Assembly: GCA_004321925.1 (NCBI GenBank) | Contig: SCQH01000058.1 | Location: 1-42,024, forward strand | Reading direction: 5' to 3' | DNA: 42,024 bases | From: Nitrospirota bacterium | GTDB taxonomy: Bacteria > Nitrospirota > Thermodesulfovibrionia > Thermodesulfovibrionales > UBA6898 | In this document: positions 2,234 through 26,218 of the stretch, piece by piece | How the letters are laid out: the number at the start of each line of letters is the position of its first letter | Position numbering within the stretch: the stretch's first letter is position 1 | The notes under the pieces: model-generated | The model's input: only the letters and a program-made list of their open reading frames with translations | The model's database searches: none | What the model was told of the DNA's origin: nothing | Program-made: the position numbers and the translations under genes

Positions 2234-2281
2234 GGTCACTCTCCTTTTCCCCACGTTGTCATCTCTTGCCAATTCAGGGGG

Positions 2282-2812: not shown

Positions 2813-2833
2813 TGCACACATCCTTTCTATGCA

Positions 2834-3883
2834 TTATGATGTCAGAAAACATTGCGGGTCCTCTGCCAGCGAACTGCCTGCGCCGGTTGCCCGGGAAAAG
2901 GCGTACGCTATCGCCCTGCAGCCTCTGCAGCTGGACCAGGCCCCGCACGAGCCGCATCTGCCTTCATAGGCGGATCTATCCCTCAGGCGGTTCAACATTT
3001 CTGAGGATGCCCATATCTCCCTGAGCGAGTCTTGCCGCACATTTCCGAGGGGGACAGGCAGTCTCCTGCAGGGGGTAACGGTGCCGTCAGGGAGTATGGT
3101 CAACCCCGATACCCCTGCCGCACAGCCTCCGGAGGGCCTCGGCTCAGGCCCGTCAGCCTCAGCGGGCACTCTGAACTGCGAGGCGACCGGGTCTCCGGTG
3201 ACGATCTTCAGCCTGCCGGTGTTCAGAGAGAATATTTTTCCGTAGAGGGCCTTTAGTGCCTCTCTTCCGAGCATCGAGTCCAGCAACTTTTCACCGCTGC
3301 CTGAAGGCACCAGCCTTGAAAAGCCGAGCCTCTGCACCCCCAGTGACGATGCCAGCTCTATCACATCCATGAAATAGGGGGCATTCATGCCGGAGAGTGT
3401 GGTATTGAGCGTGACCTCCAGATCTGCATCGAGAAGATTCCTGATGCCTTTCAAAGAGGCCGCGAAACTGCCTCTGCCCCGTATGGCATCATGAACTTCC
3501 TGCGGTCCTTCTATGCTTATCTGCACGCCCTTCAGGCCAAGCCCTGCAAGTGAAGCAGCCATATCCGGGTTTATGAGGGTCCCGTTGGTGAGGAGATAGG
3601 CATCGAACCCCTTGGTCTGCAACTCCTCCAGGACCTTGAAGATATCCTGTCTCAGGAACGGCTCCCCTCCGGTAACATTAAAGCTGGATGTAAAGTCGAG
3701 GTCATATGTCCCGGTCCAGGCCTCAAGCATGTCCGAGACCTCCCCGATTACTGACCGTATCTCGGCCAAGGACATTTCATCAGAGCTGCTGCCTCTATCC
3801 TGATAACAGTGGCTGCAGCTGAGGTTGCAGCGCTCGGTAAGGTGCAGCTGGACAAAGAACTCATAGGGGTTGTTTATGGACAT
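2834..3883 (-). CDS. Radical SAM/SPASM domain protein
   Basis: The protein has 349 residues. The radical SAM cluster motif CNLSCSHC gives C19, C23 and C26 near the N-terminus, followed by the SAM-binding GGEPF near residue 73. The C-terminal part has a Cys-rich SPASM-type region (GGCAAG, TPCRRL, CGSCGAWSSCRGC and a final PQCF) expected to hold auxiliary Fe-S clusters. Related enzymes modify peptides or act in heme d1/heme maturation (NirJ/AhbC/AhbD type), and the sequence alone does not decide which. AGGA lies eight bases before the ATG. Upstream on the same strand is a hairpin and then a 34-residue small gene, which may or may not be its partner. Confidence 0.92.
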   Translation of the reverse strand: MSINNPYEFFVQLHLTERCNLSCSHCYQDRGSSSDEMSLAEIRSVIGEVSDMLEAWTGTYDLDFTSSFNVTGGEPFLRQDIFKVLEELQTKGFDAYLLTNGTLINPDMAASLAGLGLKGVQISIEGPQEVHDAIRGRGSFAASLKGIRNLLDADLEVTLNTTLSGMNAPYFMDVIELASSLGVQRLGFSRLVPSGSGEKLLDSMLGREALKALYGKIFSLNTGRLKIVTGDPVASQFRVPAEADGPEPRPSGGCAAGVSGLTILPDGTVTPCRRLPVPLGNVRQDSLREIWASSEMLNRLRDRSAYEGRCGSCGAWSSCRGCRAIAYAFSRATGAGSSLAEDPQCFLTS

Positions 3884-7729: not shown

Positions 7730-8866
7730 TCATGCCCTGATGAACTGCATGACCTCTGCCTTGTTCTCCAGGTGATGCAGGGAGATGTTCGGCACGTCGC
7801 TGTTGCCTGGGACGGCGATCGCATGGATGAACCTCGGGCCCTGGCCGCGCCCCTGCAGGGCTGCGATCAGTTCTTTTTTCGAGGCGGTCTTAAGCGTATT
7901 GCTGATGCCGAACCCCCGTGCCACCGTCTCAAGGTCGACGCAGTCGCCTGTCAGCGTGGGCTGGTTGCCGGTAGAGCCGTATGCACCGTTGTCGATCGCC
8001 AGTATGGTCAGGTTTGCCGGTGCTGCAAACGCAGCAGTGGCAAGGGTCCCGGGGTTCATGAGCAGGCTTCCGTCCCCGTCAATGACCACGACCTCCTTGC
8101 TGGTCGACAGGCTGATGCCGAGTCCGATGGGGGTCGCCATCCCCATGCTGCCGAGCATATAGAAGTTTGACGGCTGATGCCTGACGGCAAAGAGTTCTTT
8201 TGACGGGATCCCCAGATTGCAGACGACGACCCTGGAGGCAAGGAACGGCGCCACTGCCTGTATGAGCTCAAAGCGCGTATACCGCGGAGATACCATGCTT
8301 TTCCTGGCCGGAGGCATTACGGGGATACTGCCTGCCGGGGGCAGGGGGCCTCTCCCCGCTTCTGTCCGGACGTTTGACCCTTCCCAAATGGCCGGACTCA
8401 GCAGAAAGGCCTGGAGCCTGTTCTTCCTGTAAGTCCCTGCCAGTTTTTTCCGTATGATGCTGAAGTCCTCTCCGGATCTGATCACCGAGCAGGGGATGCC
8501 GGCCGCCTGCAGCATCCGCGGCAGCCGCTGTCCCATCGGAAGCTGGGCCTCGATCCGCTCCTTATAGACCCCTCTCTGGCTGACAAAGAGCGCCAGGGGA
8601 AGTTCATAAAAGCCGTTGAGCGAGAGCAGGGCATTGAGCATGTTGCCGACCCCCGAGCTCTGCACGAAGAGGGCCGGCCTCTTCCCAGCCAGGGCGGCCC
8701 CGGCGCAGATGCCGGCGCCCTCCTCCTCACGCGTCAGGGGGAGGTGCTGAAAGCTCCCGGCAACCAGCTCCAGAAGGACCTTTATCTTTTCGCAGGGGAG
8801 TGAGGCCATAAAGTCCGTTCCCGCCTCATGAAGCAGCCCGATCAGTTCTTTTTCAGGACAGTGCAT
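7730..8866 (-). CDS. comDE: Fused sulfopyruvate decarboxylase ComDE (coenzyme M synthesis)
   Basis: This TPP enzyme converts 3-sulfopyruvate to sulfoacetaldehyde and CO2. Its 378 residues carry both subunits in one chain. The alpha (ComD-like) half covers about 1-165 with LTREEEGAGICAG (catalytic Glu near 47-49), QSSGVGNMLNAL and the segment RGVYKERIEAQLPMG. A linker of about 30 residues follows. The beta (ComE-like) half covers about 195-378 with NLGIPSKEL, NFYMLGSMGMA, the TPP motif GDGS...N from residue 264, and DNGAYGSTGNQPT. These segments match methanogen ComD/ComE closely as I remember them. GGAGG precedes the ATG. The start lies 25 bases inside cysteate synthase, implying translational coupling, and the gene ends the block. 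Phosphonopyruvate decarboxylase is the nearest alternative; the cysteate synthase neighbour favours sulfopyruvate. Confidence 0.92.
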   Translation of the reverse strand: MHCPEKELIGLLHEAGTDFMASLPCEKIKVLLELVAGSFQHLPLTREEEGAGICAGAALAGKRPALFVQSSGVGNMLNALLSLNGFYELPLALFVSQRGVYKERIEAQLPMGQRLPRMLQAAGIPCSVIRSGEDFSIIRKKLAGTYRKNRLQAFLLSPAIWEGSNVRTEAGRGPLPPAGSIPVMPPARKSMVSPRYTRFELIQAVAPFLASRVVVCNLGIPSKELFAVRHQPSNFYMLGSMGMATPIGLGISLSTSKEVVVIDGDGSLLMNPGTLATAAFAAPANLTILAIDNGAYGSTGNQPTLTGDCVDLETVARGFGISNTLKTASKKELIAALQGRGQGPRFIHAIAVPGNSDVPNISLHHLENKAEVMQFIRA

Positions 8867-10098
8867 AGCAGTTCCTCCAGCTCTTTGTCGGATGCCTTCT
8901 TTGAGATGGCCATAGGGACAACGTCCTTCACCTGTTTTTCCCTTCCGAGCCTCTTCTCACCGCCGCCGGTGATGTTCAGCAGAATGAGGTCCTCCGGCTT
9001 AACAAAACCTCCGGAAACTGCCTGCTTCAGAGCAGCGGTCGCCACGCCGGCCGCCGGCACAATATCGATGCCCTCTGTCGCGGCAAAAAGCTCCATGGCC
9101 GCATAGACCTCGTCATTGACGACCCCGTACATCCTTCCTCCGGCAGCCTTCATGACATCATAGACGCCGCCCTGGATCGAATATGCCGGGTAGCGGGTTG
9201 AAAGGACGCGCGTGGTGATCTCGGCGATCAGCTCAGGCCTCAGGTCTTCGGGGAAGAGCGTCCTGCTCTCTTTCTGCCAGGCCCTGACCATCGGGGCAAA
9301 GGGCAGGTTCTGTGCAAGATGCATCCGGGGCAGGACCTTACCGAAGCGTCCGTCCCTGATCAGCCGCTCCGACATCTCCCAGACGCCGATGCCTCCGGTC
9401 CCGCTCCCCACCGCCTGAAAATAGTGGTCAGGGAGCCTCCTGGTCTCTGCTACCGCAGCCAGTATGGTCGTACCGAGGCCGTCACGCTTGGCGATGTTCT
9501 TGACCCCTCCTTCAAACGGGAAGTTGAAGAGTCCGGCGATCCTGCGGGCGACGTCAATGGAGTCAGAATAATCTCCGTCGGTAACGGCAACGGTCGGCAC
9601 TGCCGAAGATTCTTCAAGGTACCACATCTCCTGGAGGCAGACGCCCGGAACGACGATGACGACCGGGTAGCCGGCAACCGTCGAGAGATGGGCAAAGGCC
9701 CGTGCCGTGTTCCCGGCCGAGGCCACGACCAGCCCGTCAATGCCGTTCTCAAGGGCATTCTGGAGCACGACAGCGGCCTCAAACTCCTTAAAGGTGCAGG
9801 TCTGAAGCCAGGCGCCCTGCTCCGGCCAGTAGCCGTTAAAGGCAATATAAAGGTTCCCGAGGCCAAGGGCGCTTCCGAGTCCCCGGGACCGGTAGACGAT
9901 CGTTCCGGGTTGCGCAAAAGAGGGGGTATGGACCGGCAGCCAGCGGTACTTCCATATGCCCTCGCCGCGATCGTCCCTGAATTCGGCGTCCTTGTAAACG
10001 GTCACCAGCAGCGCATCCATGCAGTGCTCGCAGAAGGCGCAGTAGACCTCGGTGAGTTCCTTGCCGCATTTTCTGCAGCGTATCGTAAAATGGCTCAT
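8842..10098 (-). CDS. Cysteate synthase (PLP-dependent, threonine-synthase fold)
   Basis: This enzyme makes L-cysteate from O-phospho-L-serine and sulfite, the entry to coenzyme M in Methanosarcina-type archaea. The 418-residue protein has an N-terminal zinc-ribbon-like set C8, C11, C20 and C23. Next comes NLYIAFNGYWPEQGA near residue 82, then TCTFKEFEA with the probable PLP lysine K104, VVASAGNTARAFA near 125, and DHYFQAVGSGTGGI near 225. It ends with ILLNITGGGEKRL. The GYWPExGA and DHYFQAVGSGTGG segments are characteristic of cysteate synthase and not of ordinary threonine synthase. The start overlaps the end of the HdrD-like gene by four bases, and its end overlaps comDE, so the three are coupled. 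No aspartate aminotransferase, needed to turn cysteate into sulfopyruvate, is in the window. Confidence 0.92.
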   Translation of the reverse strand: MSHFTIRCRKCGKELTEVYCAFCEHCMDALLVTVYKDAEFRDDRGEGIWKYRWLPVHTPSFAQPGTIVYRSRGLGSALGLGNLYIAFNGYWPEQGAWLQTCTFKEFEAAVVLQNALENGIDGLVVASAGNTARAFAHLSTVAGYPVVIVVPGVCLQEMWYLEESSAVPTVAVTDGDYSDSIDVARRIAGLFNFPFEGGVKNIAKRDGLGTTILAAVAETRRLPDHYFQAVGSGTGGIGVWEMSERLIRDGRFGKVLPRMHLAQNLPFAPMVRAWQKESRTLFPEDLRPELIAEITTRVLSTRYPAYSIQGGVYDVMKAAGGRMYGVVNDEVYAAMELFAATEGIDIVPAAGVATAALKQAVSGGFVKPEDLILLNITGGGEKRLGREKQVKDVVPMAISKKASDKELEELLCTVLKKN

Positions 10099-11321
10099 TG
10101 CTCTTCCCTTTCAATATATTCGGCAAATAGTTCCATGATGTCAACGATCGTTATTTTTTTGTCGTGGTCCTGCATGGCCTCATTGACCTTGCCATAGCAG
10201 GCTGGACAGCTCAGGACCAGCCTGTCGGCCTTTTTCCTGACCGCCTCATCGATCGCCAGTCTTCCGATGGCGACCGCATTGTCATGAAAGACCTTCCTGA
10301 CCGCGCCGCCCGCGCCGCAGCAGCGGGAATTCAGCCCATGCCGCTCGAATTCAAGGAGCTCCACGCCGGGGATGCTTCTGAGCACCTGCCGCGGCTCCTC
10401 GGTGATGCCGACCCCGCGGCTGAGATAGCAGGGGTCGTGGTAGATCAGCCTTTCGTGCAGCTCTTTTTTGACCCGGATCTTCCGCTTCCTGAGCGCGTCG
10501 ACGACGAACTGCGTGATATGCAGGACCCGGAACGGGAGTTCCTTTCCGTAGAACAGGGGCCAGTCCCTGGTCATGACGTTCACGCAGCAGGGGCAGGAGC
10601 AGAGGAGGGTCTTAACCCCGAGTGCCTTATAGGCCTCAACAAGTTTTCTGGTCAGCTCCTCCATAAGGTCATGCTGGCCCGATACAAAGAGCGGAAAGCC
10701 GCAGCAGACCTCTTCCTCCTCCGGAAGCATGGTGAACGGGTCTCCGATGACCCCAAGGACAAGGGCATCACCCCGCACCATCGGCTGGGCGCCGTAGGCC
10801 CCCGAACAACCGGCATAATAGGCCAGGTCGGCCCGCTTTGAGACCTTGACCGATTCAGGGAACCAGGGTCTGTACCTGTCAGCGGTCGGGAAGTTATACG
10901 GGTTGCCTGTCTTCTGTATCGCCTCCGGCATCTTGGTCAGGATCTCGTAATCGACCAGGCCGCGTTCTATCATCTCTTTGCGGAGATACGGCCAGAGCCG
11001 CTGCGTGAAGAGGCCGACCGTGCAGTGCTGGCCGCAGGCCCCGCAGGTGGTGCATTCAAAGACCGCCCGGGTGAATTCTTCAAGGAGCTTTTTGTCGATG
11101 TCCCCTTTTTTGAAAAGCCGCGCCTTGAGGCCGTTGGTCGCCTTGAGGAACTTCCGGAACATCCGTATCTTCTCAGGCGGTGAGACCGCAGGGTTCCCGG
11201 TCACCTCCTGCACCGGGCAGACCTTAAGGCACTCCCTGCACTGGCTGCAGGCATCGAGCTCTATCAGCTGCAACGCGGTCAGGCTGCCGCCAAACGAGGC
11301 GCTGCAGGGTTTCTTGCTCAT
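10095..11321 (-). CDS. HdrD-like heterodisulfide reductase catalytic subunit
   Basis: The protein has 408 residues. Two [4Fe-4S] motifs lie at the N-terminus: C25/C28/C31/C35 (CSQCRECLKVCP) and C90/C93/C96/C100 (CTTCGACGQHC). Two CCG domains follow. The first has YYAGCSG, EEVCCGFPLF and CSCPCC; the second has YHDPCYLSRG, SRCCGAGG and LSCPACYG. This is the order of HdrD of methanogens and of related DsrK/GlpC-type proteins. In HdrD the CCG domains hold the special cluster that splits a heterodisulfide. I chose 11321 because GAGGAG lies upstream and it avoids a 41-base overlap with the membrane subunit; the frame is open to 11375. With the HdrE-like partner just upstream, and coenzyme M genes just downstream, it probably handles CoM-related disulfide or thiol chemistry. 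Confidence 0.9.
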   Translation of the reverse strand: MSKKPCSASFGGSLTALQLIELDACSQCRECLKVCPVQEVTGNPAVSPPEKIRMFRKFLKATNGLKARLFKKGDIDKKLLEEFTRAVFECTTCGACGQHCTVGLFTQRLWPYLRKEMIERGLVDYEILTKMPEAIQKTGNPYNFPTADRYRPWFPESVKVSKRADLAYYAGCSGAYGAQPMVRGDALVLGVIGDPFTMLPEEEEVCCGFPLFVSGQHDLMEELTRKLVEAYKALGVKTLLCSCPCCVNVMTRDWPLFYGKELPFRVLHITQFVVDALRKRKIRVKKELHERLIYHDPCYLSRGVGITEEPRQVLRSIPGVELLEFERHGLNSRCCGAGGAVRKVFHDNAVAIGRLAIDEAVRKKADRLVLSCPACYGKVNEAMQDHDKKITIVDIMELFAEYIEREEQ

Positions 11322-11334
11322 CTGCCGCCTCTCC

Positions 11335-12051
11335 TCACCCATGTGCTCCCGGACCTGCGGCGGCATGTTCTTCATGCATCAGAGAATTCAGGGACTGCTC
11401 GCGCCTCCGCGCCTCCATGGTGACGACCGGCGCCGAGAAGATATGTGAGGGCAGCAGGAGGACCAGCAGGAGGACGGCAAGGAAGTGGAACAGAAAAAGA
11501 TATTCTCCCCGGAGCGGTCCAGGCCGAAAGACAAGCAGACCAAAGGCGAACTCTTTTATCAGGACCAGGTCAGGCCTGAATACGGTTGTCATGAGGAGCC
11601 CGGTGAGACCGATGACGAAGACCAGCCCGAGGATCAGGTAGTTGTCATAGGTGAGGTACCGGTCCTTTGAAGAAAATACGCGTATGGAGAGCAGCCAGAG
11701 GACGGCGACCGGCAGGATATAGCCTGAGATGAGGCCGCAGGTCTGCAGGTCCTGCACCCATACCGGGACCGGCTCCATAAAGTACCGGAGATGCCGCAGC
11801 AGGACCAGGAGAAAAGAGAGGTGAAAGGCGAACGAACCGGTCCAGAGCATCCCGTTGGCCACGAATACCCTGCGGAAGAAGATGACATCAAGGGTCATAA
11901 GCATACGGGTCCCGAACGATGTCCTCTGGTTTACGGCAGAGGGTAACTTCAGCAGACGGGTTGCCCGTGTCCAGGACCAGAAGTGCCAGAGGAGCCGGAG
12001 ACCGAAGAGCAGATAGACGGTATATGCCAGCAGGGCGAGCGATCGCGACAT
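11335..12051 (-). CDS. HdrE/NarI-like membrane cytochrome b subunit
   Basis: The protein has 238 residues and about five predicted membrane helices. Likely heme b ligands are the helix-borne His pairs H77/H87 (AFHLSFLLVLLRH) and H189/H203 (FLFHFLAVLLLVLLLPSH), the arrangement seen in NarI and HdrE. Such subunits pass electrons between a quinone (or methanophenazine) and a cytoplasmic Fe-S partner. It sits directly upstream of the HdrD-like gene with a 13-base gap, forming a membrane pair. The start ATG follows GGGAGCAATA. Together they could feed electrons from thiol oxidation into the quinone pool, or use quinol to reduce a disulfide; the direction cannot be told from sequence. Confidence 0.86.
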   Translation of the reverse strand: MSRSLALLAYTVYLLFGLRLLWHFWSWTRATRLLKLPSAVNQRTSFGTRMLMTLDVIFFRRVFVANGMLWTGSFAFHLSFLLVLLRHLRYFMEPVPVWVQDLQTCGLISGYILPVAVLWLLSIRVFSSKDRYLTYDNYLILGLVFVIGLTGLLMTTVFRPDLVLIKEFAFGLLVFRPGPLRGEYLFLFHFLAVLLLVLLLPSHIFSAPVVTMEARRREQSLNSLMHEEHAAAGPGAHG

Positions 12052-12063
12052 TATTGCTCCCGG

Positions 12064-12144
12064 TCACCGGACATGGTGACGGAGTTTCATATACCCTGCC
12101 GGGCAGCCTTTCTTCAGCCTGTAGCGCTTCATACTGTATATCAT
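12064..12144 (-). CDS. Possible 26-residue basic peptide ahead of the HdrE-like gene
   Basis: In the 155-base gap between the unknown 107-residue protein and the HdrE-like gene, an ATG at 12144 preceded by CCGGAGAG opens a 26-codon frame. It begins MIYSMKRYRLKKGCPAGYMK and ends in TGA 12 bases before the HdrE-like ATG. It is very basic with one Cys. The ribosome site is good but there is no other support. It could be a leader peptide that couples translation of the membrane subunit, or chance. Confidence 0.33.
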   Translation of the reverse strand: MIYSMKRYRLKKGCPAGYMKLRHHVR

Positions 12145-12206
12145 ACTATCTCTCCGGAAAAAATATTGTCATCGTCAGGCAAGTATCAGCATATAGGCAG
12201 GAGAGG

Positions 12207-12530
12207 TCAGCCTGCAGTGTCTTTGACAAAGGACATGGTCACGTCCCTCGGCACGTTAAGTCCTGCCTCAACCTCCAGCGCCTTCAGGATGCCGCAGGGC
12301 ACCGGGCAGGCAGCATGCTTCAGGCATGCTGCCCCCTTGATGAACACCGGATTTTCGACCAGCTGCTTAAAGGCGTCCATCGTCGTCAGCTCGGTCAGCG
12401 TGGTCCCGAGCTTTTGCACCATGGTGCATTCCGAGGTGACCGTGAGCGAAAAGGTCTTATTGTCCTTCTGCTCAACGTCAACCTGCACCAGCATGCCGCA
12501 GGCCCCGGGGTTGATAAGGAGTCGTGTCAT
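12207..12530 (-). CDS. Conserved-looking Cys-containing protein of unknown function
   Basis: The 107-residue soluble protein begins MTRLLINPGACGMLVQVDVE. Five cysteines are visible: one in GACG, one in SECT, and a cluster in GAACLKHAACPVPCG near residues 68-80. It probably has an alpha/beta fold and has no signal peptide or membrane segment. It lies 11 bases downstream of the corrinoid activator and in the same block as the methyltransferases and Hdr genes, so it is likely a small accessory protein of the pathway, perhaps metal or Fe-S binding through the Cys cluster. I do not recognise the family with certainty and propose no reaction. Confidence 0.8.
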   Translation of the reverse strand: MTRLLINPGACGMLVQVDVEQKDNKTFSLTVTSECTMVQKLGTTLTELTTMDAFKQLVENPVFIKGAACLKHAACPVPCGILKALEVEAGLNVPRDVTMSFVKDTAG

Positions 12531-12541
12531 GAAGGTCCCGG

Positions 12542-14533
12542 TCAGCCCTTGATCCCTGAGCTTATCGGCGCCTTCTGCTCCTCAAGCATCGCCTTCAGGT
12601 TCGGGAACTTGTCCTTCATATGCGGTATATGCATTGCCATCATGAACTCCTTCTCGAAGGCAGGCTCGGTCGCGATCTCGACAAATTCGACCCACCGGGC
12701 GCGTTCGTTCGCCTCTTTTCTCTTGTTCTTGTTCAGCAGGGCCATCCGGGACCCGTCACCGGCTGCATTGCCGACGACGACGACCTTGTCGATCGGGACA
12801 TCGGGGAAGAGGCCCAGGGTGAGAGAGGCCTCCCGGTCGATATGGCTGCCGAAGGCCCCGGCCAGTTCCACGCGGTCGAGCTTGGCAACGCCCATCTTCT
12901 GCATCATCAGCTTGGTCCCTGCATAGAGAGCGCCCTTGGCAAGCTGAAGCGCCCTGACATCCCCCTGGGTGACCGTGATGTCCTGGTCGATGGATGTCTC
13001 AGCCGCCCAGGCAAGGACATACTCCGGCTTCCCCTCTGCATTTTTTCTGACCCTGTTGGTCCCGGCGTCAGGAACGAATTTGCCGGTCTTGTCGATGATG
13101 CCCGCCTTGAACATCTCGGCTATAACATCGATGATCGCCGAGCCGCAGATGCCCTTTGCGTTGATCTTTCCCTCGATATGGGTATGCCAGTCGGCCTTGC
13201 CGATGACCTTGTACTTCGGTTCCTTTGTCTCGTAGTCTATCTTCACTTTTTCGATCGCGCCCGGGGCAGCCCTCATGCCGAACTTTATCTGTGCGCCCTC
13301 AAAGGCAGGGCCGGTTGCGCAGGAGGTCGAGCAGACCCTGTCCTTGTTCCCCAGGAGGAGCTCCCCGTTCGTGCCGATGTCGATGATCAGGACCATATCG
13401 TCCTGGAAATACTGTTCCTGGGCGATCAGGACGCCGACATTGTCGGCCCCGACGAACCCTGCCTCGATCGGCAGCACATGGATGAAGGCGCCGGGGTTTA
13501 TCTTCAGCCCCAGGTCGCGGGCCTTGATATCAAGGGACTGCTGGACCGCGGGGATGAAGGGCGAACGGCCGATATAGACCGGGTTCAGCCCGAGGAATAT
13601 GTGGTGCATTGCCGTGTTGAAGACGATGGTGAGGTCATCGATCGCAAACCCCGGATGAGGCCCGTCCTTCCTGATCTCGGCCACCACCTTGTCGATGATC
13701 TCATTGAGGCCTGCTATGATCGCATCCTGCATGGTCTTGAGCCCTTCAGGGTTCGTCATGGCATAGGTTATTCTGGACATGACGTCCTCGCCATAGGGCA
13801 CCTGAGGGTTCATGATCGATTCGGTGTTGATGACGTTGCCCGTGGACATGTCGCAGAGATAGCCGACACAGGTGGTCGTCCCTATGTCGACGGCAAGACC
13901 ATAACAGACATCGACATGGCCGGGTTCGACCTTGATGATCTCTTTATCCATCCAGACGGTGACCGTGATCGTCCAGTCGCCGTTGCGCAGGGCATCCTGG
14001 AGCTGCAGCAGCGCCTCAAAATCGAACGTCAGGCCCTTGATGCCGTAGATCTCCTCCATCCTGTTTGCGACCCGCTCATAGTCGCCGGTCGTCATGTCAT
14101 GCAGGGTGGGCGGAGTGAAGGTCAGTACGTATTTCTTCACCGCCGGATCAAGCGCTATGACAAGCTCTTTCGCCGCCTTTCTGACCACCTGCTTCCCTGC
14201 CCTGGACCTCTCGGGCACAAAGACCTTGAGGTCACCATGGATCTCGCAGGAGCAGGCCAGTCTGATGCCCGGCCCGTCCTCGGGTTTGATATGCTTCAGC
14301 TCTTCCGGGGTCGGCTCCAGCGGCGTGATATGCGCCATGCCTGATTCGAGGTTGTCCTTTTCAAAATAACCTTCTTCGATCCTGACCTTGCATTTGCCGC
14401 AGACCTTCTTGTCTCCGCAGAGCGCCTCAAGGTCAACGCCGAGGCGCTGGGCAGCCTTGAGTATGGTCGTTCCTTCTTCTATCTCTCCGCGCCGGCCGGC
14501 CGGCTGGAATATTACCTTGAATGTGCGGCTCAT
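12542..14533 (-). CDS. Corrinoid protein reductive activator (RACE/RamA-like, 2Fe-2S + ASKHA)
   Basis: The protein has 663 residues. An N-terminal plant-type ferredoxin domain holds a [2Fe-2S] cluster with C39, C45 and C48 (CGDKKVCGKC) plus C94 or C96 (LACSC). A linker domain follows. The large ASKHA-fold ATPase part has phosphate-binding loops GLAVDIGTTTCVGY near residue 210 and LIIDIGTNGELLLG near 385, and AGAFGSH near 575. Proteins of this family use ATP to drive reduction of inactive cob(II)amide on corrinoid proteins back to cob(I)amide. Here it would serve the corrinoid protein encoded four genes downstream in sequence coordinates. Its length and order match bacterial RACE proteins. The gene is followed 11 bases later by the unknown 107-residue protein. 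Confidence 0.95.
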   Translation of the reverse strand: MSRTFKVIFQPAGRRGEIEEGTTILKAAQRLGVDLEALCGDKKVCGKCKVRIEEGYFEKDNLESGMAHITPLEPTPEELKHIKPEDGPGIRLACSCEIHGDLKVFVPERSRAGKQVVRKAAKELVIALDPAVKKYVLTFTPPTLHDMTTGDYERVANRMEEIYGIKGLTFDFEALLQLQDALRNGDWTITVTVWMDKEIIKVEPGHVDVCYGLAVDIGTTTCVGYLCDMSTGNVINTESIMNPQVPYGEDVMSRITYAMTNPEGLKTMQDAIIAGLNEIIDKVVAEIRKDGPHPGFAIDDLTIVFNTAMHHIFLGLNPVYIGRSPFIPAVQQSLDIKARDLGLKINPGAFIHVLPIEAGFVGADNVGVLIAQEQYFQDDMVLIIDIGTNGELLLGNKDRVCSTSCATGPAFEGAQIKFGMRAAPGAIEKVKIDYETKEPKYKVIGKADWHTHIEGKINAKGICGSAIIDVIAEMFKAGIIDKTGKFVPDAGTNRVRKNAEGKPEYVLAWAAETSIDQDITVTQGDVRALQLAKGALYAGTKLMMQKMGVAKLDRVELAGAFGSHIDREASLTLGLFPDVPIDKVVVVGNAAGDGSRMALLNKNKRKEANERARWVEFVEIATEPAFEKEFMMAMHIPHMKDKFPNLKAMLEEQKAPISSGIKG

Positions 14534-14607
14534 CTATAACTCCTCCTGATACGATGCATTTAAAGAATGGTCCCGGACAGGCCGGGATGAACAACGTGCA
14601 GGCAGCG

Positions 14608-15261
14608 TCACTGCCGGATGCTTTTTCTTCTGCTGCTCTTTCGCGAATAGGGACAGACCGTTATGCAGAAACCGCAGTTCGGCCTCTCATCGAGGGCGGT
14701 CCTTCTGCTTTTCAGGGCCCGGCATTTGTCATACTGGACCAGGACCCTCAGCGGGTCACGCACGGACCAGAGATGCCCTTCCAGTGCCTGCGACGGGCAG
14801 TGCGTCACGCAGAGCTCGCAGGTCCCGCACTCTGATTCCGAGGTCGGCTCATCCGGGACGAACGGCGCATTGGTCAGCACCGTTGCCCAGGACAGCTTCG
14901 AGCCATACTGCCTGTTGATCAAAAGCCCGTTCTTGCCGATCCAGCCGAGTCCCGAGCAGGTGGCCGCGGTCTTGTGGCAAAAGAGCTTATACAGCTTTGT
15001 GATGTACTTGGCCTTGCGTCTGTCAGAGTCCGGCGGTATCAGCAGGCTCCTGAATCCCCTGACCTTCAGCCAGCCCGAGGCCAGGTCCTGCAGCCCTGAG
15101 AGCAGTTCCACGGTCTCTGCCCCGAGGCTCCTGTTGACGGCGATCGCGATGCCCCGGTTGAGGTGGCTGATCTCGGCCGACAGGGCCGGGGTCACATCAC
15201 CGACCCCGACGAGCGTTGCGCCCTCCCTCAGCAGGAAACGCTTCAGGGGCTCTGTCTCCAC
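14608..15261 (-). CDS. QueG-like double [4Fe-4S] protein, corrinoid-pathway accessory
   Basis: The protein has 217 residues. Its first part resembles the N-terminal region of epoxyqueuosine reductase QueG (GLGWIGKNGLLINRQYGSKL near residue 105). Two [4Fe-4S] motifs follow: CGTCELCVTHCP near 145 and CGFCITVCPYS near 196, with an extra Cys (DKCRA) near 180. It lacks the C-terminal HEAT-repeat domain of QueG. QueG-type proteins bind cobalamin and reduce through Fe-S clusters. In corrinoid methyltransferase operons such short relatives probably supply electrons to, or maintain, the corrinoid. It lies three bases after the corrinoid protein gene, supporting that role over tRNA modification. Confidence 0.85.
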   Translation of the reverse strand: METEPLKRFLLREGATLVGVGDVTPALSAEISHLNRGIAIAVNRSLGAETVELLSGLQDLASGWLKVRGFRSLLIPPDSDRRKAKYITKLYKLFCHKTAATCSGLGWIGKNGLLINRQYGSKLSWATVLTNAPFVPDEPTSESECGTCELCVTHCPSQALEGHLWSVRDPLRVLVQYDKCRALKSRRTALDERPNCGFCITVCPYSRKSSRRKSIRQ

Positions 15262-15264
15262 GGT

Positions 15265-15948
15265 CTACTTCTTCAGTTTCTCTTCCCTGAGCTTCTTGAG
15301 GAAGGCGACCATCTTGATGGCTTCCTTGAGCGCGTTGCTTGCGTCCTCGGCATACCCGTCAGCGCCCCATTTGTCGGCAAGCTCCTTGGAGGTCGGGGCC
15401 CCGCCGATCATGATCATGCAGTCGGGGTTCTTTGCCTTGATCTTCTCGATGATCTTCGGCATGCCGACCATGGAGGTGGTCATCATGGCCGACAGGCAGA
15501 CTATCTCGGAGTCTGTCTTGAGCTGCTCATCGACGAACTTGTCCAGAGGCACGTCCCGGCCGAGGTCATAGACATTGAAGCCTGCGACATCGAACATCAT
15601 CTTCACGAGGTTCTTCCCGATATCATGGACGTCCCCTTCGACCGTGCCGATGACGACCGACCCCTTGACCCCGAGGTCCATCTGCTTGCAGTGCGGCTTC
15701 AGGATGTCGAGTCCGGCATACAGGGCGTCGGCGCACATCAGGATCTCAGGGACAAAATATTCCTGGGCCTCAAAGAGCCTGCCGACCTCTTCCATGCCGG
15801 AGACGAGGCCGTCGAAGATGGCCTCGTTGGCGTCCAGCCCTGCGTCGACCGCTTCCTGGGCGCCCTCCCTGCAGGCGTCCTCGTCATACTGGATGACCCC
15901 GTTCTTCAGTTTTTCATAGATCTCATTCTTTCTCGCGTCATCAACCAT
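15265..15948 (-). CDS. Methyltransferase corrinoid-binding protein (MtaC/MtbC/MttC-like)
   Basis: The protein has 227 residues in two domains: an N-terminal helical B12-binding cap (about 1-90, with EALFDGL-like and EEVGRLFEAQEYFVPEIL segments) and a Rossmann B12-binding domain. The cobalt-ligating motif D106-x-H108-xx-G111 sits in GDVHDIGKN. The other base-binding segments are SAMMTTSM near residue 155 and IGGAPTS near 185. It carries the methyl group between the methyltransferases of the cluster on its cobalt. The ATG overlaps the stop of the MtaA-like gene (TAATG), so the two are tightly coupled. This is the only corrinoid carrier protein in the block. Confidence 0.96.
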   Translation of the reverse strand: MVDDARKNEIYEKLKNGVIQYDEDACREGAQEAVDAGLDANEAIFDGLVSGMEEVGRLFEAQEYFVPEILMCADALYAGLDILKPHCKQMDLGVKGSVVIGTVEGDVHDIGKNLVKMMFDVAGFNVYDLGRDVPLDKFVDEQLKTDSEIVCLSAMMTTSMVGMPKIIEKIKAKNPDCMIMIGGAPTSKELADKWGADGYAEDASNALKEAIKMVAFLKKLREEKLKK

Positions 15949-16976
15949 TACTTTTTACCTCCGTATTTTTTTACTTCATCCATCATCGCTTCCATATTCT
16001 GCGGCGGCACGGTCGGCCAGATGTCGCAGCCGGGCCATACCCCGCTCACCCCGTCGTCAATGCACTTTCTGACCGACTGCCGCACGATCTCCTCACTGCC
16101 TGAGACCAGCACGTTGTAGGCGTCCATATTGCCGAAGATGATGGCATCAGGACCGAGCTTCTTCCTCGACTCTGCAACATCGTTCTTCTGCTCGACGCTG
16201 ATCGCCGTGGGGCCTGCCTCCATCATGGACGTGACGATCTCGTTCGTCTTGCCGCAGATATGCAGGACGGAAAAGACGGAGAGCGCCTTCATCACCTTCT
16301 GGAGCGGCGGCAGGATAAGGCTCTTGAAGACCCGCGGGCTGAGCACGTCGCTGGTCGCGCCCATCTCCCTGACCGTGATGAAGTCCACCCCTGCCTTCTC
16401 ATACTCCTTTGCGACCAGGATGATGGCGTCGGCGCAGAGGTCCAGAAGCTTCGCGACCTTATCCGCCTTCTTGAACGAAAGCTTCAGGAGATCGTTCAGT
16501 TCCATGATCTGGCCGGCCAGGGTGAAGGGCCCGAGGACGTAGGAGCCGATCGCGACCTCCTTCCCGATATCGGCCTTAAGGAGCCCGATCGCTTCCCGCA
16601 TCAGCGGGATCCTGCCCTTTTCGGACAGGCCCTCCGGGAGTTTGATCGTATCCATCTCTGCCTCGTTATGGATCAGTTTTTCCTTGATCGTCGGATAGAG
16701 GATGCCTTCCGCCTGCGGGTAGACATTGATCACGCAGCCCATGGCCTCTGCCTCGACACAGAGGTCGACCGGCACGACCCCGCACTCGTAACCGAACAGT
16801 TTGTAGGTGGTCGCCGCGGTCTCTGCCATCTGCTTCGCGTCAAGGTGGATGCCGGCAAAGCGGTACCCGAGCTTATTGATGCCGGTCTCGGTGATATTTC
16901 CCATGCCGCTGAAGCAGGGCACCCTGTCGACCGGTTCCTTCCTGAAGACCTTTAATACTCTCTCTCGTGAATTCAT
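15948..16976 (-). CDS. MtaA/MtbA-like methylcobamide:coenzyme M methyltransferase (UroD fold)
   Basis: The 342-residue TIM-barrel protein begins MNSRERVLKVFRKEPVDRVP, the usual opening of MtaA/MtbA. It contains VEAEAMGC near residue 75 and the zinc site of the family: H239 and C241 in LHICGKTN plus C317 in GCDIWPTVPPQN. In methanogens, zinc in this HxC...C site activates coenzyme M thiol for attack on methyl-cobalamin. The presence of coenzyme M synthesis genes in the same block strongly favours CoM as the thiol substrate here. The ATG at 16976 has AAAGGAG upstream; a TTG extends the frame 21 bases further. It is fused by a TAATG overlap to the corrinoid protein gene and lies 26 bases after the MtrH-like gene. 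Confidence 0.9.
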   Translation of the reverse strand: MNSRERVLKVFRKEPVDRVPCFSGMGNITETGINKLGYRFAGIHLDAKQMAETAATTYKLFGYECGVVPVDLCVEAEAMGCVINVYPQAEGILYPTIKEKLIHNEAEMDTIKLPEGLSEKGRIPLMREAIGLLKADIGKEVAIGSYVLGPFTLAGQIMELNDLLKLSFKKADKVAKLLDLCADAIILVAKEYEKAGVDFITVREMGATSDVLSPRVFKSLILPPLQKVMKALSVFSVLHICGKTNEIVTSMMEAGPTAISVEQKNDVAESRKKLGPDAIIFGNMDAYNVLVSGSEEIVRQSVRKCIDDGVSGVWPGCDIWPTVPPQNMEAMMDEVKKYGGKK

Positions 16977-17002
16977 TAACGATGATTCTCCTTTCAACCT
17001 GA

Positions 17003-17962
17003 TTATTTGCCTTTTTTCCTTGACCCGCCCTCCTGGAGCTTGGTGATGAACTCGCCGAAATACTTTCTCAGCGGGAGGTTGGGGTTGTCATATATTATTC
17101 CGGACTCGTCATAGACGAGGGTGGTCAGCAGCATATGCGCGCTTGCCACTGCCGGGAAGACCCGGGGCGCGGTGATCACCGGTCCGCAGAAATTGAAATC
17201 GGACCAGAGCGCCGACGCCATGCCCTGCACCACGGCATCCATGGCCTTGAAACCGTCAAGCCCCCAGATGTCCTTGATCTCCTTCCACATATGGGTGCCG
17301 TTAGAGTAGGCCCCGCCGCAGGGCAGGCCATGTTTTTCCTTGATCATCCTGTTGGCAACGAGCGAGAACGAGGTCGAGGGGAGGTTCATGACCGAGGTGT
17401 CGACGATGACCGTCTCAAAGGAGTCCGCCCCCTGCGCCATGATCGCCTCAAGGGATTTCACCCGCCCCGCAGGCGACTGGTCCTGGTCGTCGAACGCCTG
17501 TATGACCACATGTTTTATCCCGAGGTCCTTCAGTCTCTGGACCTGGCCTTTGATGTCCTTGTCCCAGGGGGTGATGCTGTTATACAGGAATTTGTCCTGG
17601 ACGCCGAGCTGGGCGACATATTCCGTCGCCTTTGCCCTCTGATCGGCCACCCACATGTCGATGCCAAAGGGCATGGAGGTATTCTCAAGATAAAAATCAA
17701 TATAGGTCTTCGCCTCGTCCGGAGTGTTGGCAACCATGGCGATCATGGCAGGAACGCCGGTGGCCCCGGAGATCTGCTCGACCTGTTTTAACATCTCCTT
17801 TGTCCTGACGCGGTCGAAATTGCCCTTCCGGTCGGTCTTGCTGACGCTGTCCTTGTTATGGAACAGCGAAGCTATCATAAGCGGCGGGTTCTCACCGGGC
17901 TGGCCGCCCACGGGGATGCCGCTGAAGTTGAATACCTTTTGCTCTTTATCAAATCTGAACAT
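17003..17962 (-). CDS. MtrH family methyltransferase (tetrahydrofolate/pterin:corrinoid)
   Basis: The 319-residue protein begins MFRFDKEQKVFNFSGIPVGG, the standard opening of MtrH. It has the family segments PPLMIASLFHNKD near residue 25, GVPAMIAMVANTP near 70, and the late GLPCGGAYSNGTH. In methanogens MtrH moves methyl between methyl-tetrahydromethanopterin and the corrinoid of the Mtr complex. Bacterial relatives, such as glycine betaine and related demethylation systems, use tetrahydrofolate. No membrane Mtr subunits are present, so it must work with the soluble corrinoid protein encoded nearby. AAAGGAG precedes the ATG. Paired with the CoM methyltransferase it would complete a soluble methyl-pterin to CoM exchange. 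Confidence 0.93.
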   Translation of the reverse strand: MFRFDKEQKVFNFSGIPVGGQPGENPPLMIASLFHNKDSVSKTDRKGNFDRVRTKEMLKQVEQISGATGVPAMIAMVANTPDEAKTYIDFYLENTSMPFGIDMWVADQRAKATEYVAQLGVQDKFLYNSITPWDKDIKGQVQRLKDLGIKHVVIQAFDDQDQSPAGRVKSLEAIMAQGADSFETVIVDTSVMNLPSTSFSLVANRMIKEKHGLPCGGAYSNGTHMWKEIKDIWGLDGFKAMDAVVQGMASALWSDFNFCGPVITAPRVFPAVASAHMLLTTLVYDESGIIYDNPNLPLRKYFGEFITKLQEGGSRKKGK

Positions 17963-18014
17963 TACGTCTCCTTTTTCCGAAATTGTGCTAATATACTATA
18001 TCTCTCATCTCTGG

Positions 18015-18057
18015 GCAGCTCTTCTCCATCCTAATGAAGAGAGCTGCTCTCTTTTTT
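18015..18057 (+). terminator. Terminator-like hairpin oriented against the operon
   Basis: GCAGCTCT at 18015-18022 pairs with AGAGCTGC at 18040-18047. On the plus strand it is followed by TCTCTTTTTT, the form of an intrinsic terminator. All genes here run on the minus strand, where the hairpin has an A-rich side first and no T tract after it. It could end an antisense transcript or act as an mRNA-stability hairpin in the 114-base gap between the CMD-like and MtrH-like genes. Confidence 0.5.
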
Positions 18058-18076
18058 ATTATTTCAGTTCACATCC

Positions 18077-18523
18077 CTAGAATACGCCGTGGTCGAACTT
18101 CGGTGCCGGCAGGTATTCCCACTTCTCGCCCTTGCGGTATTTTGCCTCGATGTCAAGGCACTTCAGGGCATACTCAAATGCATAGGGGATGCCGGGGCCG
18201 CCCGGGACAAAGCCTGCCAGGATCATGCCGACCGAGGCCGCCTCGAAGATCTCGCCGGTGGTAGCGCCTGCATTGATGGCCGGGATCACATGGATGATGC
18301 AGCGCGGTGAGCAGTAGGCAACGCCGCCTGACATGAACATGAGTTCCTTGGTCTTCCGCGAGAGCGCGCCGTCTCCGAATATGCTTTCATAGAAGTCTGC
18401 GAAGGTCCTTCCCGGATCAGGGGTGACCGTGTTGATGATCTGGAACATCCGCGGGACGAACCCGCATTTCTTCTGCATGTACTCGTTAACTTCCTCTACG
18501 GTCATTTTTTTTGCATCTGCCAT
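18077..18523 (-). CDS. CMD/AhpD-like small protein in the methyltransferase block
   Basis: From the ATG at 18523 the product has 148 residues. It resembles the carboxymuconolactone decarboxylase/AhpD fold: ALSRKTKELMFMSGGVAYCSPRC near 65-85, then INAGATTGEIFEAASVGMILAG. The Cys pair is CSPRC (three residues apart) followed by IIH, whereas AhpD has CxxC then His, so it may bind a cofactor or perform thiol redox in a different way. Two good in-frame starts exist: 18523 (GGGAGG upstream) and 18595 (also GGGAGG upstream), the latter adding 24 residues. Such proteins are common companions in bacterial methyltransferase clusters; the exact role is not known. Confidence 0.8.
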   Translation of the reverse strand: MADAKKMTVEEVNEYMQKKCGFVPRMFQIINTVTPDPGRTFADFYESIFGDGALSRKTKELMFMSGGVAYCSPRCIIHVIPAINAGATTGEIFEAASVGMILAGFVPGGPGIPYAFEYALKCLDIEAKYRKGEKWEYLPAPKFDHGVF

Positions 18524-18698
18524 TGGTGTTTCCTCCCTTTGTGTGCTTTCCGGCCCCAGGGCCAGGAATTTCCTGATAACATCAATAATTCCCATTGCTT
18601 CCTCCCAGGTGAAACGGGTCATGCGCCTCGTTGATCTTTATGCCTCCACCTCCTTTCATCGGTCTATTCATCGCTCGGGGCCTTGCTCCGGGCAGTGC

Positions 18699-19742
18699 TC
18701 AGTATTTCCAGTTGAACGCCGTATCATGGAAGATCCTGAGGTTCTCATACGGTATGGTCGGGGGGATATCACAACCGGGGACGAGGATGAAGCCGCCGTC
18801 TGCGCCGGCTATCCCGATCACCTCTTTGCAGGCTGCCTCGACCTCGGCCGCGGTCTTGTTCAGCAGGACATGCACCGGCGCGACGTTGCCGCCGAAGCTC
18901 ATCTTGCCCTGGAGGACCTCTTTGGCCTTTGCGATATCGACCTTCTGGTCGAAGAATATGCTGCTGCAGCCGGTGTCGATGAACTGTTCGAGCCGGTCTC
19001 CGGTATTGCCGCAGATATGCAGGATGGTATGGGCATTTTTGGACTTTGCCCAGTCGCTCATCTTTCTGAGCGGGGGCACGGCGAATTTCGCCATCTGCTT
19101 AGGATTGATCAGGTCTCCCGAGGCCGTCGGATCGGCGATGCTCAGGCAATTAATGCTGCCGTCGGCGATCAGGGGCTCATACAGATGGATAAGCAGGTTG
19201 GCGCAGAAGTTGACCATTGCCTCCACAAAGGCAGGCTTCTTGAACGTATACTTCATGAAGGCCTCTTCCCCGACGAACCGGGCGGCCAGGGTGAACGGGC
19301 CCCAGCAGGTCATCGTCACCAGGTACTTCCTGCCGATCGCCTTGCTGACGAGCCGTGTTGCCTCCATGACATTATTGATGACCGGGTCCTTGAAAAGGTC
19401 GTCCATATTCAGCTTGGCGATCTCCTCTTCAGCCGTGACGAAATGTGCGGTAAGGTCGGGAGCCCCGATCTCACGGTATTTGATGCCGGCTCCGAAGGCG
19501 GTCCCGAGCGCAGAGGCATGAAAGTTATTGAAGCCGGAGCCGACATAGACCACGTCGGACCGGATCCTCTCTGCCTCCTTTATGCACATGTCCGCCATCT
19601 TTGCCGCGTCCTTTGCAAGCTCCTCGAAGGTCGAGCCATAGTCCTTGATGCTCCACATGCCGCCGCCGAAGATAGTCACCGGGACACGCTCTGTTTTGCC
19701 GCCTTCAAATGCCTTCAGAATGATCTCTCTTGGTTCCATCAT
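18699..19742 (-). CDS. UroD/MtaA-family zinc methyltransferase
   Basis: The 347-residue TIM-barrel protein begins with two Met codons just after AAGGAGG. The family zinc site is present: H242 and C244 in LHICGNTGDR and C324 in GCDIPPTIPYEN. It also has the barrel segment TMTCWGPFTLA near residue 145. It is clearly diverged from the other UroD-type protein in the block and lacks its VEAEAMGC segment. It may therefore be the substrate-specific enzyme that takes a methyl (or alkyl) group from an external donor to the corrinoid, or an alternative CoM methyltransferase. It is the first enzyme gene of the block. The zinc ligands indicate a methyltransferase, not uroporphyrinogen decarboxylase. Confidence 0.9.
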   Translation of the reverse strand: MMEPREIILKAFEGGKTERVPVTIFGGGMWSIKDYGSTFEELAKDAAKMADMCIKEAERIRSDVVYVGSGFNNFHASALGTAFGAGIKYREIGAPDLTAHFVTAEEEIAKLNMDDLFKDPVINNVMEATRLVSKAIGRKYLVTMTCWGPFTLAARFVGEEAFMKYTFKKPAFVEAMVNFCANLLIHLYEPLIADGSINCLSIADPTASGDLINPKQMAKFAVPPLRKMSDWAKSKNAHTILHICGNTGDRLEQFIDTGCSSIFFDQKVDIAKAKEVLQGKMSFGGNVAPVHVLLNKTAAEVEAACKEVIGIAGADGGFILVPGCDIPPTIPYENLRIFHDTAFNWKY

Positions 19743-19758
19743 GCCTCCTTGGTTTTTA

Positions 19759-20103
19759 TTAGTTCAGATGCCTGAGTCTCGGAAGTTCGTGTATCGTCTG
19801 CCTGAAGGCCGCAAGGTCGAGCGGCGCCTCGATGCTGAGCGCATCCGTATCAAGCTTGTCATATCCTATGAAAATGACAAGCAGCTCCGGCAGGACAGCC
19901 TTGAAGATCTTTATGGCGGCCTCGACCGACAGGCCGAAGGGTTCGGCGTCCATGACGACCGCCGTGTAATCCTCCCTGAGGACCATCTGGACGGCCAGGG
20001 AAGGGTGGTCAGCGGTCTCGACCGAATACCCCTCGTCCCTGAGCATCCCGTAAAGGTTCTTGGTCAGCAGCTGGTTATTCAGGCATAAAAGCAGGTCGGT
20101 CAT
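19759..20103 (-). CDS. Degenerate receiver-like protein heading the methyltransferase block
   Basis: The 114-residue single-domain protein has the strand/helix pattern of a response-regulator receiver: MTDLLLCLNNQLLTKNLYGMLRDEGYSV, then AVVMDAEP with a possible phospho-acceptor D52, then LLVIFIGYD. The N-terminal acidic pair is replaced (LCLNNQ), the Thr/Ser after the fourth strand is Gly, and the C-terminal Lys is missing, so normal phosphorylation is doubtful. It lies 16 bases before the first methyltransferase gene and just downstream of a sigma-54-type promoter. The predicted transcript start is only about two bases before the ATG, which has no good ribosome site, so translation may be leaderless. 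It may be a regulatory or scaffold protein. Confidence 0.7.
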   Translation of the reverse strand: MTDLLLCLNNQLLTKNLYGMLRDEGYSVETADHPSLAVQMVLREDYTAVVMDAEPFGLSVEAAIKIFKAVLPELLVIFIGYDKLDTDALSIEAPLDLAAFRQTIHELPRLRHLN

Positions 20104-20115
20104 ACCTAATAATTG

Positions 20116-20131
20116 TGCAAGTACGGTGCCA
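20116..20131 (-). promoter_or_regulatory. Sigma-54-type promoter of the methyltransferase/CoM operon
   Basis: On the minus strand the sequence TGGCACCGTACTTGCA matches TGGCACG-N4-TTGCA at all defined positions but one (C for G at the seventh). The -12 base falls at about 20117, so transcription should start near 20105, immediately before the first gene. Control by an enhancer-binding activator and a substrate signal would suit a methyl-utilisation operon; no such activator gene is in the window. Confidence 0.75.
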
Positions 20132-24410: not shown

Positions 24411-24865
24411 TTCTTATCCTCCTCGGAAATATATATTCTCTTATCAAATGATACACTTTTTTGGTCCTTAGATACAGTTATTTTAAGGTCCCAGAGGCCA
24501 TGGACCGGAAAGGTCACCGGGGCACTGTACAGGCCGGGGGCCGCCTCGGCCGCAGTGTAGGTGCGGTCGAGCTTTACCGTATTGGGCCTGCTGACCTTTA
24601 TGCCCACTGCCGCGTCCCTCAGCAGCTGCCTGCTGCGGTCGGTGACGGTCACGGCCAGAGGGTTCTCTCCCTGCCGGAGCTTTTCGTCGGCGAGGGCAAT
24701 GTCCCAGCCGCTGGCCTCTTTTTCTTTTCTGGTCCTGTCCCAGGCCAGGCCGGCCTCATAAGGCTTCTCGGTGACGAGGCCGTCAAAGCTCCTGCTGCCG
24801 ACAATGATCGTCCCTGCGACTGCAGCGAGGACAATGGCGGTAATTATCATGAGTATGATCTTCAT
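24407..24865 (-). CDS. fixH: FixH family protein
   Basis: The 152-residue protein has one N-terminal membrane helix (ILMIITAIVLAAVAGTIIVG) and a periplasmic beta-rich domain. It has EKPYEAGLAWD near residue 35, the typical FixH/CcoH opening after the helix, and FPVHGLWDLKITV near 120. FixH (CcoH) is an assembly or stabilisation factor of cbb3 oxidases. Its ends overlap the cytochrome c and ccoG genes by four bases each. Confidence 0.8.
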   Translation of the reverse strand: MKIILMIITAIVLAAVAGTIIVGSRSFDGLVTEKPYEAGLAWDRTRKEKEASGWDIALADEKLRQGENPLAVTVTDRSRQLLRDAAVGIKVSRPNTVKLDRTYTAAEAAPGLYSAPVTFPVHGLWDLKITVSKDQKSVSFDKRIYISEEDKK

Positions 24866-26073: not shown

Positions 26074-26203
26074 CGAACATCGTGAACTTTGCTTCTTCGA
26101 CCTTATGCCGGCGTTTTTTTGAGTAGTAGAACCCGATGATCACGCCGAAGAGAACGACGAGCGCCAGCCCGAACAGAAAATATGCCATGCCCTGAATGTT
26201 CAT
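26060..26203 (-). CDS. CcoQ/FixQ-like small membrane protein
   Basis: The 47-residue protein begins MNIQGMAYFLFGLALVVLFG, has a single membrane helix, and then has YYSKKRRHKVEEAKF and an acidic end. The helix followed by a short basic stretch is the pattern of CcoQ, which stabilises the oxidase. It is positioned between the structural genes and ccoG, the normal place for ccoQ. The ribosome site is weak (GGGAAC). Identification rests on size, topology and position. Confidence 0.7.
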   Translation of the reverse strand: MNIQGMAYFLFGLALVVLFGVIIGFYYSKKRRHKVEEAKFTMFDDED

Positions 26204-26218
26204 ACGAGCTGTTCCCGG

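Follow-up and report, generated by a model that had tools for sequence, protein, structure and literature searches.

Coenzyme M (CoM) is textbook methanogen chemistry and in bacteria is known mainly from epoxide metabolism, which it serves in Xanthobacter, where it is made from phosphoenolpyruvate by a different route. In Methanosarcina, cysteate synthase and sulfopyruvate decarboxylase adjoin, and the thiol step of CoM synthesis is made by MMP16/COG1900 (PMC12068725). Other described systems share further parts: MtaA, MtbA or MtsA and a corrinoid protein in methylotrophic methanogenesis; several MtaA-like proteins, one corrinoid protein, one reductive activator of corrinoid protein (RACE), and sulfur/selenium-type zinc sites in type 1 mlp gene clusters (Kountz & Balskus, PMC10418091); and mtrH and methyltransferases without mcr in Hydrothermarchaeota, for which an alternate fate of methyl-CoM was proposed (Carr et al. 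2019, PMC6775978). Here, we analyze a minus-strand gene block (positions 7730-20103) in a stretch of 42,024 nucleotides (the whole of contig SCQH01000058.1, assembly GCA_004321925.1; hereafter, the window) from a Nitrospirota (Thermodesulfovibrionia) metagenome-assembled genome (MAG; 3.2 Mb, 120 contigs including the window, rated 100% complete). The block joins methanogen-type CoM synthesis genes to corrinoid methyltransferase genes, and the best overall explanation, which we consider probable, is a conserved system that makes and uses CoM without methanogenesis.

Like Xanthobacter, the host would be a CoM-making bacterium, with different starting enzymes. As in Methanosarcina, genes for cysteate synthase (CysS) and sulfopyruvate decarboxylase (ComDE), from the same enzyme families, adjoin, whereas here MMP16/COG1900 is missing, a protein that we call SBP312 possibly standing in its place, and methyl-CoM reductase (MCR) is missing as well. 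MtaA1, one of two MtaA-type proteins, keeps the zinc site of the methylotrophic enzymes, but both fall into clades of their own with Hydrothermarchaeota, and methyl groups can reach tetrahydrofolate (H4folate) through MtrH. In contrast to type 1 mlp gene clusters, the block regularly includes MtrH, adds CoM genes and HdrDE, and occurs in different taxa. With the Hydrothermarchaeota methyl-cycling genes, it shares MtrH, methyltransferases, and the lack of mcr; CoM synthesis genes went unreported in that study, the main text of which does not mention cysteate (PMC6775978), while we see them there beside SBP312. As originally predicted, the open literature searched (most subscription literature lay outside the search) yielded no bacterial system of such composition: each enzyme family is already known, but those papers describe neither the combination, nor its occurrence in MCR-free bacteria together with the archaeal first steps, nor the lack of COG1900.

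Judged by family, the window CysS is an authentic cysteate synthase. It reaches 468.3 bits on TIGR03844 (equivalog cut-off 324.9), and in a tree rooted at its midpoint, with some long outgroup branches, bacterial CysS forms a clade (100/100) with Hydrothermarchaeota CysS as sister (95/94) and methanogen CysS outside; threonine-synthase-like rows are set apart by a branch of 3.67 (100/99), which excludes that identity. The fused ComDE exceeds the cut-off of the alpha model (TIGR03845, 176.6 vs 148 bits) and falls about 2 bits short of that of the beta model (TIGR03846, 219.3 vs 221.5), which its archaeal ortholog L140 passes with 236 bits, and it is 50-54% identical to the Hydrothermarchaeota ComDE that adjoins CysS. 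Phosphonopyruvate decarboxylase was rejected on model scores (199 bits against a cut-off of 312) rather than on a tree. The original prediction had taken both proteins for archaeal phosphoserine/cysteate-route enzymes, which the family scores and the grouping of CysS with archaeal cysteate synthases bear out.

CysS scored above the cut-off in 59 of 396 sampled genomes of the phylum. Gene order was assessed in 67 named bacterial loci fetched by CysS alone, many of which stop at contig borders; co-occurrence was assessed in 80 Nitrospirota-phylum genomes, picked as 45 CysS-positive and 35 CysS-negative; and the window's own genome (G000) was searched family by family. At least 11 of the block's 12 genes stand in order on one strand in 30/67 loci, so the gene order that the original prediction suggested seeking in relatives does exist. 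Neighboring genes lie within 300 bases of each other in most loci that show both (HdrD-CysS 56/59, CysS-ComDE 61/65), the loosest pair being DUF6951-HdrE (32/48), between which FolD or a chemotaxis receptor may sit. An MtaA1 ortholog (identity ≥66%) was present in 45/45 CysS-positive and 0/35 CysS-negative genomes (Fisher p 2e-23, with genomes of the same lineage not independent), and MtaA1 tracks CysS in all nine families that hold both CysS states. In family f12, CysS-ComDE-SBP312 and an MtaA2...HdrE-HdrD cluster occupy two separate places in the same genome, which indicates that the co-occurrence of MtaA1 and CysS is more than physical hitch-hiking. Given order conservation and co-occurrence, the association is not due to chance, and the predicted union of CoM-route and methyltransferase genes in one block holds across many genera. 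Named relatives with the block are Nitrospirota/Thermodesulfovibrionia MAGs, of which three (CP070669, CP070737, and CP070788) were deposited as chromosomes; a MAG labelled Thermoleophilia (L133) and an unclassified bacterium (L136) carry the block too. Archaeal contamination or misassembly was ruled out because dozens of independent MAGs from Nitrospirota, the three chromosomes among them, contain the block.

Of the two MtaA-type proteins, MtaA1 scores above the cut-off of the CoM-methyltransferase subfamily (NF004889, 255.2 vs 244 bits) and below the stricter MtaA/MtbA equivalogs (239 vs 400 and 171 vs 600); its nearest solved structure is MtaA (4ay7), and its identity is 53-56% with its Hydrothermarchaeota partners and 32-33% with the closest MtaA-like proteins of methanogens. 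MtaA2 stays below the TIGR01463 cut-off (193 vs 235 bits). The two form separate clades in the tree, each with a Hydrothermarchaeota partner, and a His-Cys-Cys zinc site (HxC + PGC) is kept by both proteins of the window as well as by all bacterial relatives tested. These ligands have been argued to mark sulfur- or selenium-methyl enzymes (Kountz & Balskus, PMC10418091), an argument by which MtaA1 and MtaA2 would be such enzymes. MtrH (PF02007, 157 bits; NF002142, 314 vs cut-off 287) was found with MtaA1 in 43 loci, at most 300 bases apart in 42 of them, and the block's single corrinoid protein scores 205 bits on TIGR02370 (cut-off 215).

The system is not confined to bacteria. Orthologs of most parts (CysS-ComDE, MtaA1, MtaA2, corrinoid protein, RACE, AhpD-like protein, and HdrDE) occur in Hydrothermarchaeota, so that the original description of the system as bacterial, correct for Nitrospirota, was too narrow. 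Ca. Hydrothermarchaeum profundi carries HdrE-HdrD-(two short open reading frames, ORFs)-CysS-ComDE-SBP312 on one strand and MtaA1-corrinoid protein-RACE-MtrH on the same contig; in a second Hydrothermarchaeota genome, relatives of HdrD, the AhpD-like protein, and MtaA2 lie near such an MtaA1-to-MtrH cluster. Hydrothermarchaeota MtrH is only 37-39% identical. The mcr genes that the original prediction proposed looking for elsewhere in the genome were absent by a search for the MCR alpha subunit (PF02745; 0/45 Nitrospirota and 0/4 Hydrothermarchaeota genomes, with a positive Methanolobus control).

That the bacterium makes CoM, as originally predicted, holds for the identities of cysteate synthase and ComDE but not for the known last enzyme: PF01837, the model covering the COG1900/MMP16 family, had no match in the 80 Nitrospirota-phylum genomes, the window's included, or in 4 Hydrothermarchaeota genomes, while methanogen controls were positive, so the complete known CoM route is not shown. 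Two further CysS-positive bacteria (G409 and G410) each have a PF01837 protein; as candidates for a hidden ComF these were rejected, since MMP16 scores of 113-120 against 364 bits lie far under the cut-off and make the homocysteine type more likely. SBP312, a protein of sulfonate-binding fold found as a ComDE neighbor, occurs in 43/45 CysS-positive and 1/35 CysS-negative genomes. It adjoins ComDE in bacteria and archaea, stands beside CysS-ComDE in 8/8 SBP312-bearing Hydrothermarchaeota genomes (the archaeal survey covering the Hydrothermarchaeota phylum and 22 further entries), and lies on another contig in the window's genome (G000:C99:6841-7761, 61% identical to the query). Its invariant residues include Cys74, His79, Glu81, His121, and Asp122; Cys257 is invariant among 17 sequences and nearly so among 38. 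The best structure matches of its AlphaFold model (pLDDT 90) are TauA and SsuA, which bind taurine and alkanesulfonates, followed by Thi5 and, lower, DszB, the last two being enzymes on the same fold. Since its chain begins right at the first strand of the fold, we read SBP312 as cytosolic. Selenocysteine was rejected, the in-frame TGA codons flagged in four genomes being normal stops at the C-terminus. A homolog in Methanolobus profundi (L276:9812-12235), a methanogen with two COG1900 proteins, stands beside genes for a ThiS-like carrier, a ThiF-like E1, sulfite reductase, and a PAPS-reductase-family protein.

We hypothesize that SBP312 acts in sulfur transfer or sulfonate handling and is a candidate alternative CoM synthase. 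The fuller proposal, which we advance tentatively and would put at somewhat under an even chance, is that SBP312 is a second, non-homologous CoM synthase (through Cys74/His79/Glu81 and Cys257) that exchanges the aldehyde group of sulfoacetaldehyde for a thiol, with a persulfide or ThiS-type thiocarboxylate as sulfur donor, within an MCR-free CoM methyl cycle of bacteria and non-methanogenic archaea.

The HdrD-like protein has two complete CCG motifs and two 4Fe-4S motifs with ligands invariant across bacterial and archaeal relatives, and reaches no NCBIfam equivalog cut-off (best TfrB, 173 vs 385 bits). The HdrE-like protein has no Pfam match, while a BLAST relative (L041) matches NarI (PF02665). 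HdrE-HdrD directly precedes CysS-ComDE in most loci, and the pair is missing from the block in at least three loci that hold the rest (L120, L135, and L136). The substrate of the HdrD-like protein may be a disulfide or persulfide of CoM, or the protein may supply electrons for making the thiol. Handling of the CoM redox state at the membrane, the original prediction for this pair, is at most a putative role drawn from the likeness to HdrE and HdrD, to be set against those three loci. HdrE-HdrD pairs are doubled in tandem in L079, L085, L086, and L100, the second HdrD being only 26-30% identical to that of the window.

The sequences show the family identities of CysS, ComDE, corrinoid protein, RACE, MtrH, and the MtaA proteins, their linkage and co-occurrence, and the absence of MCR and COG1900. 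Most likely, the host makes CoM and uses it as a methyl-thiol carrier that feeds H4folate. Cysteate synthase would convert phosphoserine and sulfite to cysteate, a general aminotransferase would yield sulfopyruvate, ComDE would decarboxylate this to sulfoacetaldehyde, and a non-COG1900 enzyme, for which SBP312 is the best candidate, would install the thiol, the predicted product of the route being CoM. MtaA1 would then shuttle methyl groups between CoM and the single corrinoid protein, kept active by RACE with the QueG-like and DUF6951 proteins as putative helpers; we infer that MtaA2 would move them between the corrinoid protein and a different thiol or selenol compound. MtrH would exchange methyl groups with H4folate toward FolD and the Wood-Ljungdahl pathway, and we think that the flow is oxidative, into H4folate. 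FolD in the block (9/67 loci) and carbon monoxide dehydrogenase/acetyl-CoA synthase (76/80 genomes) suggest that methyl groups can be oxidized or carbonylated. The HdrD/HdrE-like pair and the AhpD-like protein could handle a CoM disulfide or persulfide or swap electrons with quinone.

Several observations weigh against CoM as a methyl carrier made with SBP312. A single corrinoid protein would allow methyl transfer from MtaA2 to MtrH that bypasses CoM, which leaves the need for CoM as a carrier unexplained. MttB-type methyl donors are absent from the window's genome, which thus has no obvious methyl donor gene, and from all CysS-positive genomes except two; methyl groups may therefore come from a methylated sulfur or selenium compound on which MtaA2 acts. 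The only genetically supported CoM synthase family is the absent PF01837, leaving the thiol step unproven. SBP312 itself coexists with COG1900 proteins in Methanolobus profundi and shows no electron-carrying cluster; it is missing from the CysS-positive G201 and represented in the CysS-positive G334 only by a divergent, signal-peptide-bearing relative; and G221 holds it (G221:C9:14718-15650, 62% identity) without MtaA1 or CysS above the cut-off, through recent loss, an assembly gap, or another role of SBP312. A binding or sensing role for SBP312 is possible. The absence of COG1900, the closeness of SBP312 to taurine and alkanesulfonate binders, and the occurrence of MtaA-like proteins in many bacteria not known as CoM makers (Kountz & Balskus, PMC10418091) would also fit a sulfonate route that ends before CoM (at isethionate, taurine, or another sulfonate), with MtaA and MtrH forming an ordinary H4folate-linked thiol or selenol demethylase. 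We hold this to be unlikely, as MtaA1 passes the CoM-methyltransferase subfamily cut-off and an unrelated sulfonate product would not predict its perfect tracking of CysS in nine families.

CoM could instead be made and serve chiefly as a redox thiol of low molecular weight or as a persulfide carrier, with HdrDE and the AhpD-like protein to recycle it and the methyltransferases to salvage S-methylated CoM or other methyl-thiols. Such a role would suit the position of HdrE-HdrD before CysS-ComDE (separated by the two short ORFs in Ca. Hydrothermarchaeum profundi), the disulfide-type motifs of both HdrD and the AhpD-like protein, and the reported protection of methanogens against oxidative stress by comDE overexpression (PMC12713407); yet MtaA1 is more constant than HdrDE, which is not in the block at the three loci named above and in family f12 sits with the methyltransferases, apart from CysS-ComDE, and we regard this role as quite unlikely. 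Least probable, and to our minds very unlikely, is an explanation built on likeness to type 1 mlp gene clusters: although multiple MtaA-like proteins, a corrinoid protein, RACE, and His-Cys-Cys zinc sites make up the same set, those clusters were first described without an H4folate methyltransferase, here a fixed member in MtrH, and have not been reported with CoM genes. If a CoM-making and CoM-using system is indeed what the block encodes, then methyl-CoM metabolism would not be tied to methyl-CoM reductase and would be shared by bacteria and non-methanogenic Hydrothermarchaeota, whose "alternate fate of methyl-CoM" would gain a concrete gene set. The block suggests an undescribed use of CoM and a possible new last-step enzyme; the constant absence of COG1900 and near-constant presence of SBP312 would make the origin of the CoM thiol directly testable, and neither CoM nor its synthesis genes in subsurface samples could be read as a methanogen marker.

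All genes named by the original prediction were recovered on the minus strand near the positions it gave; it had omitted DUF6951, the AhpD/CMD-family protein, and the response-regulator-like protein, all of which recur in the block (Table 1).

Table 1. Genes of the block in the window, by increasing coordinate
Feature	Coordinates	Strand	Basis
ComDE, fused sulfopyruvate decarboxylase (alpha + beta)	7730..8866	-	TIGR03845/TIGR03846 scores; Hydrothermarchaeota orthologs
Cysteate synthase CysS (phosphoserine + sulfite to cysteate)	8842..10098	-	TIGR03844; tree
HdrD-like iron-sulfur protein, 2 CCG domains + 2 4Fe-4S motifs	10095..11375	-	PF02754, Fer4
HdrE/NarI-like membrane cytochrome b candidate	11335..12051	-	Position; BLAST to block members
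DUF6951 small cysteine-rich protein	12207..12530	-	PF22263, 99 bits
RACE, RACo-type reductive activator of corrinoid protein	12542..14533	-	PF14574, PF17651, PF17650, Fer2
QueG-like double 4Fe-4S protein (truncated QueG/reductive-dehalogenase-like)	14608..15261	-	PF13484; TIGR00276, TIGR02486
Corrinoid (B12-binding) protein	15265..15948	-	PF02310, PF02607
MtaA1, methylcobamide:CoM-type methyltransferase (probable CoM enzyme)	15948..16997	-	NF004889; zinc ligands
MtrH-family methyl-corrinoid:H4folate (or tetrahydromethanopterin) methyltransferase	17003..17962	-	PF02007, NF002142
AhpD/CMD-family protein with CxxxCxxH	18077..18622	-	PF02627
MtaA2, second UroD/MtaA-type methyltransferase, thiol- or selenol-type zinc site	18699..19742	-	TIGR01463; own clade
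Response-regulator-like protein, head of block	19759..20103	-	Recurrence upstream of MtaA2; function inferred

In transcription order, the genes encode the response-regulator-like protein, MtaA2, AhpD/CMD, MtrH, MtaA1, corrinoid protein, QueG-like protein, RACE, DUF6951, HdrE-like protein, HdrD-like protein, CysS, and ComDE. The last four overlap (HdrE/HdrD by 41 bases, HdrD/CysS by 4, and CysS/ComDE by 25), the pattern expected for translationally coupled genes. The response-regulator-like gene lies directly upstream of MtaA2 in L090, L118, L119, L122, L129-L132, and L135, DUF6951 adjoins RACE in nearly all loci, and the AhpD/CMD-family protein is among the most conserved of the block (62-96%). 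The QueG-like protein scores far under both cut-offs (TIGR00276 64.6 bits, TIGR02486 52 bits).

In some genomes, a methyl-accepting chemotaxis protein gene sits between HdrE and RACE (L074:6477, L083:6512, and L094:5788), which suggests an external substrate. In about 25 loci (L043:13947-14546 and relatives), a protein of about 200 residues without a Pfam match (p200) is encoded close to ComDE or SBP312, usually divergently from the block; unsupervised clustering also gave recurrent ORFs, most of them shadow ORFs, which were set aside. Outside the conserved unit, the window encodes, near the block (869-3883), a flavoprotein resembling dihydrolipoyl dehydrogenase or mycothione reductase and a radical SAM/SPASM protein, and, farther off, a 1470-residue relative of PorU, the type IX secretion sortase (34300-38712; 252 bits, below the cut-off of 420). 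Subunits of a cbb3-type cytochrome oxidase and a CcoG-like protein are encoded near the anaerobic-looking block (24862-28907), suggesting that the host meets oxygen.

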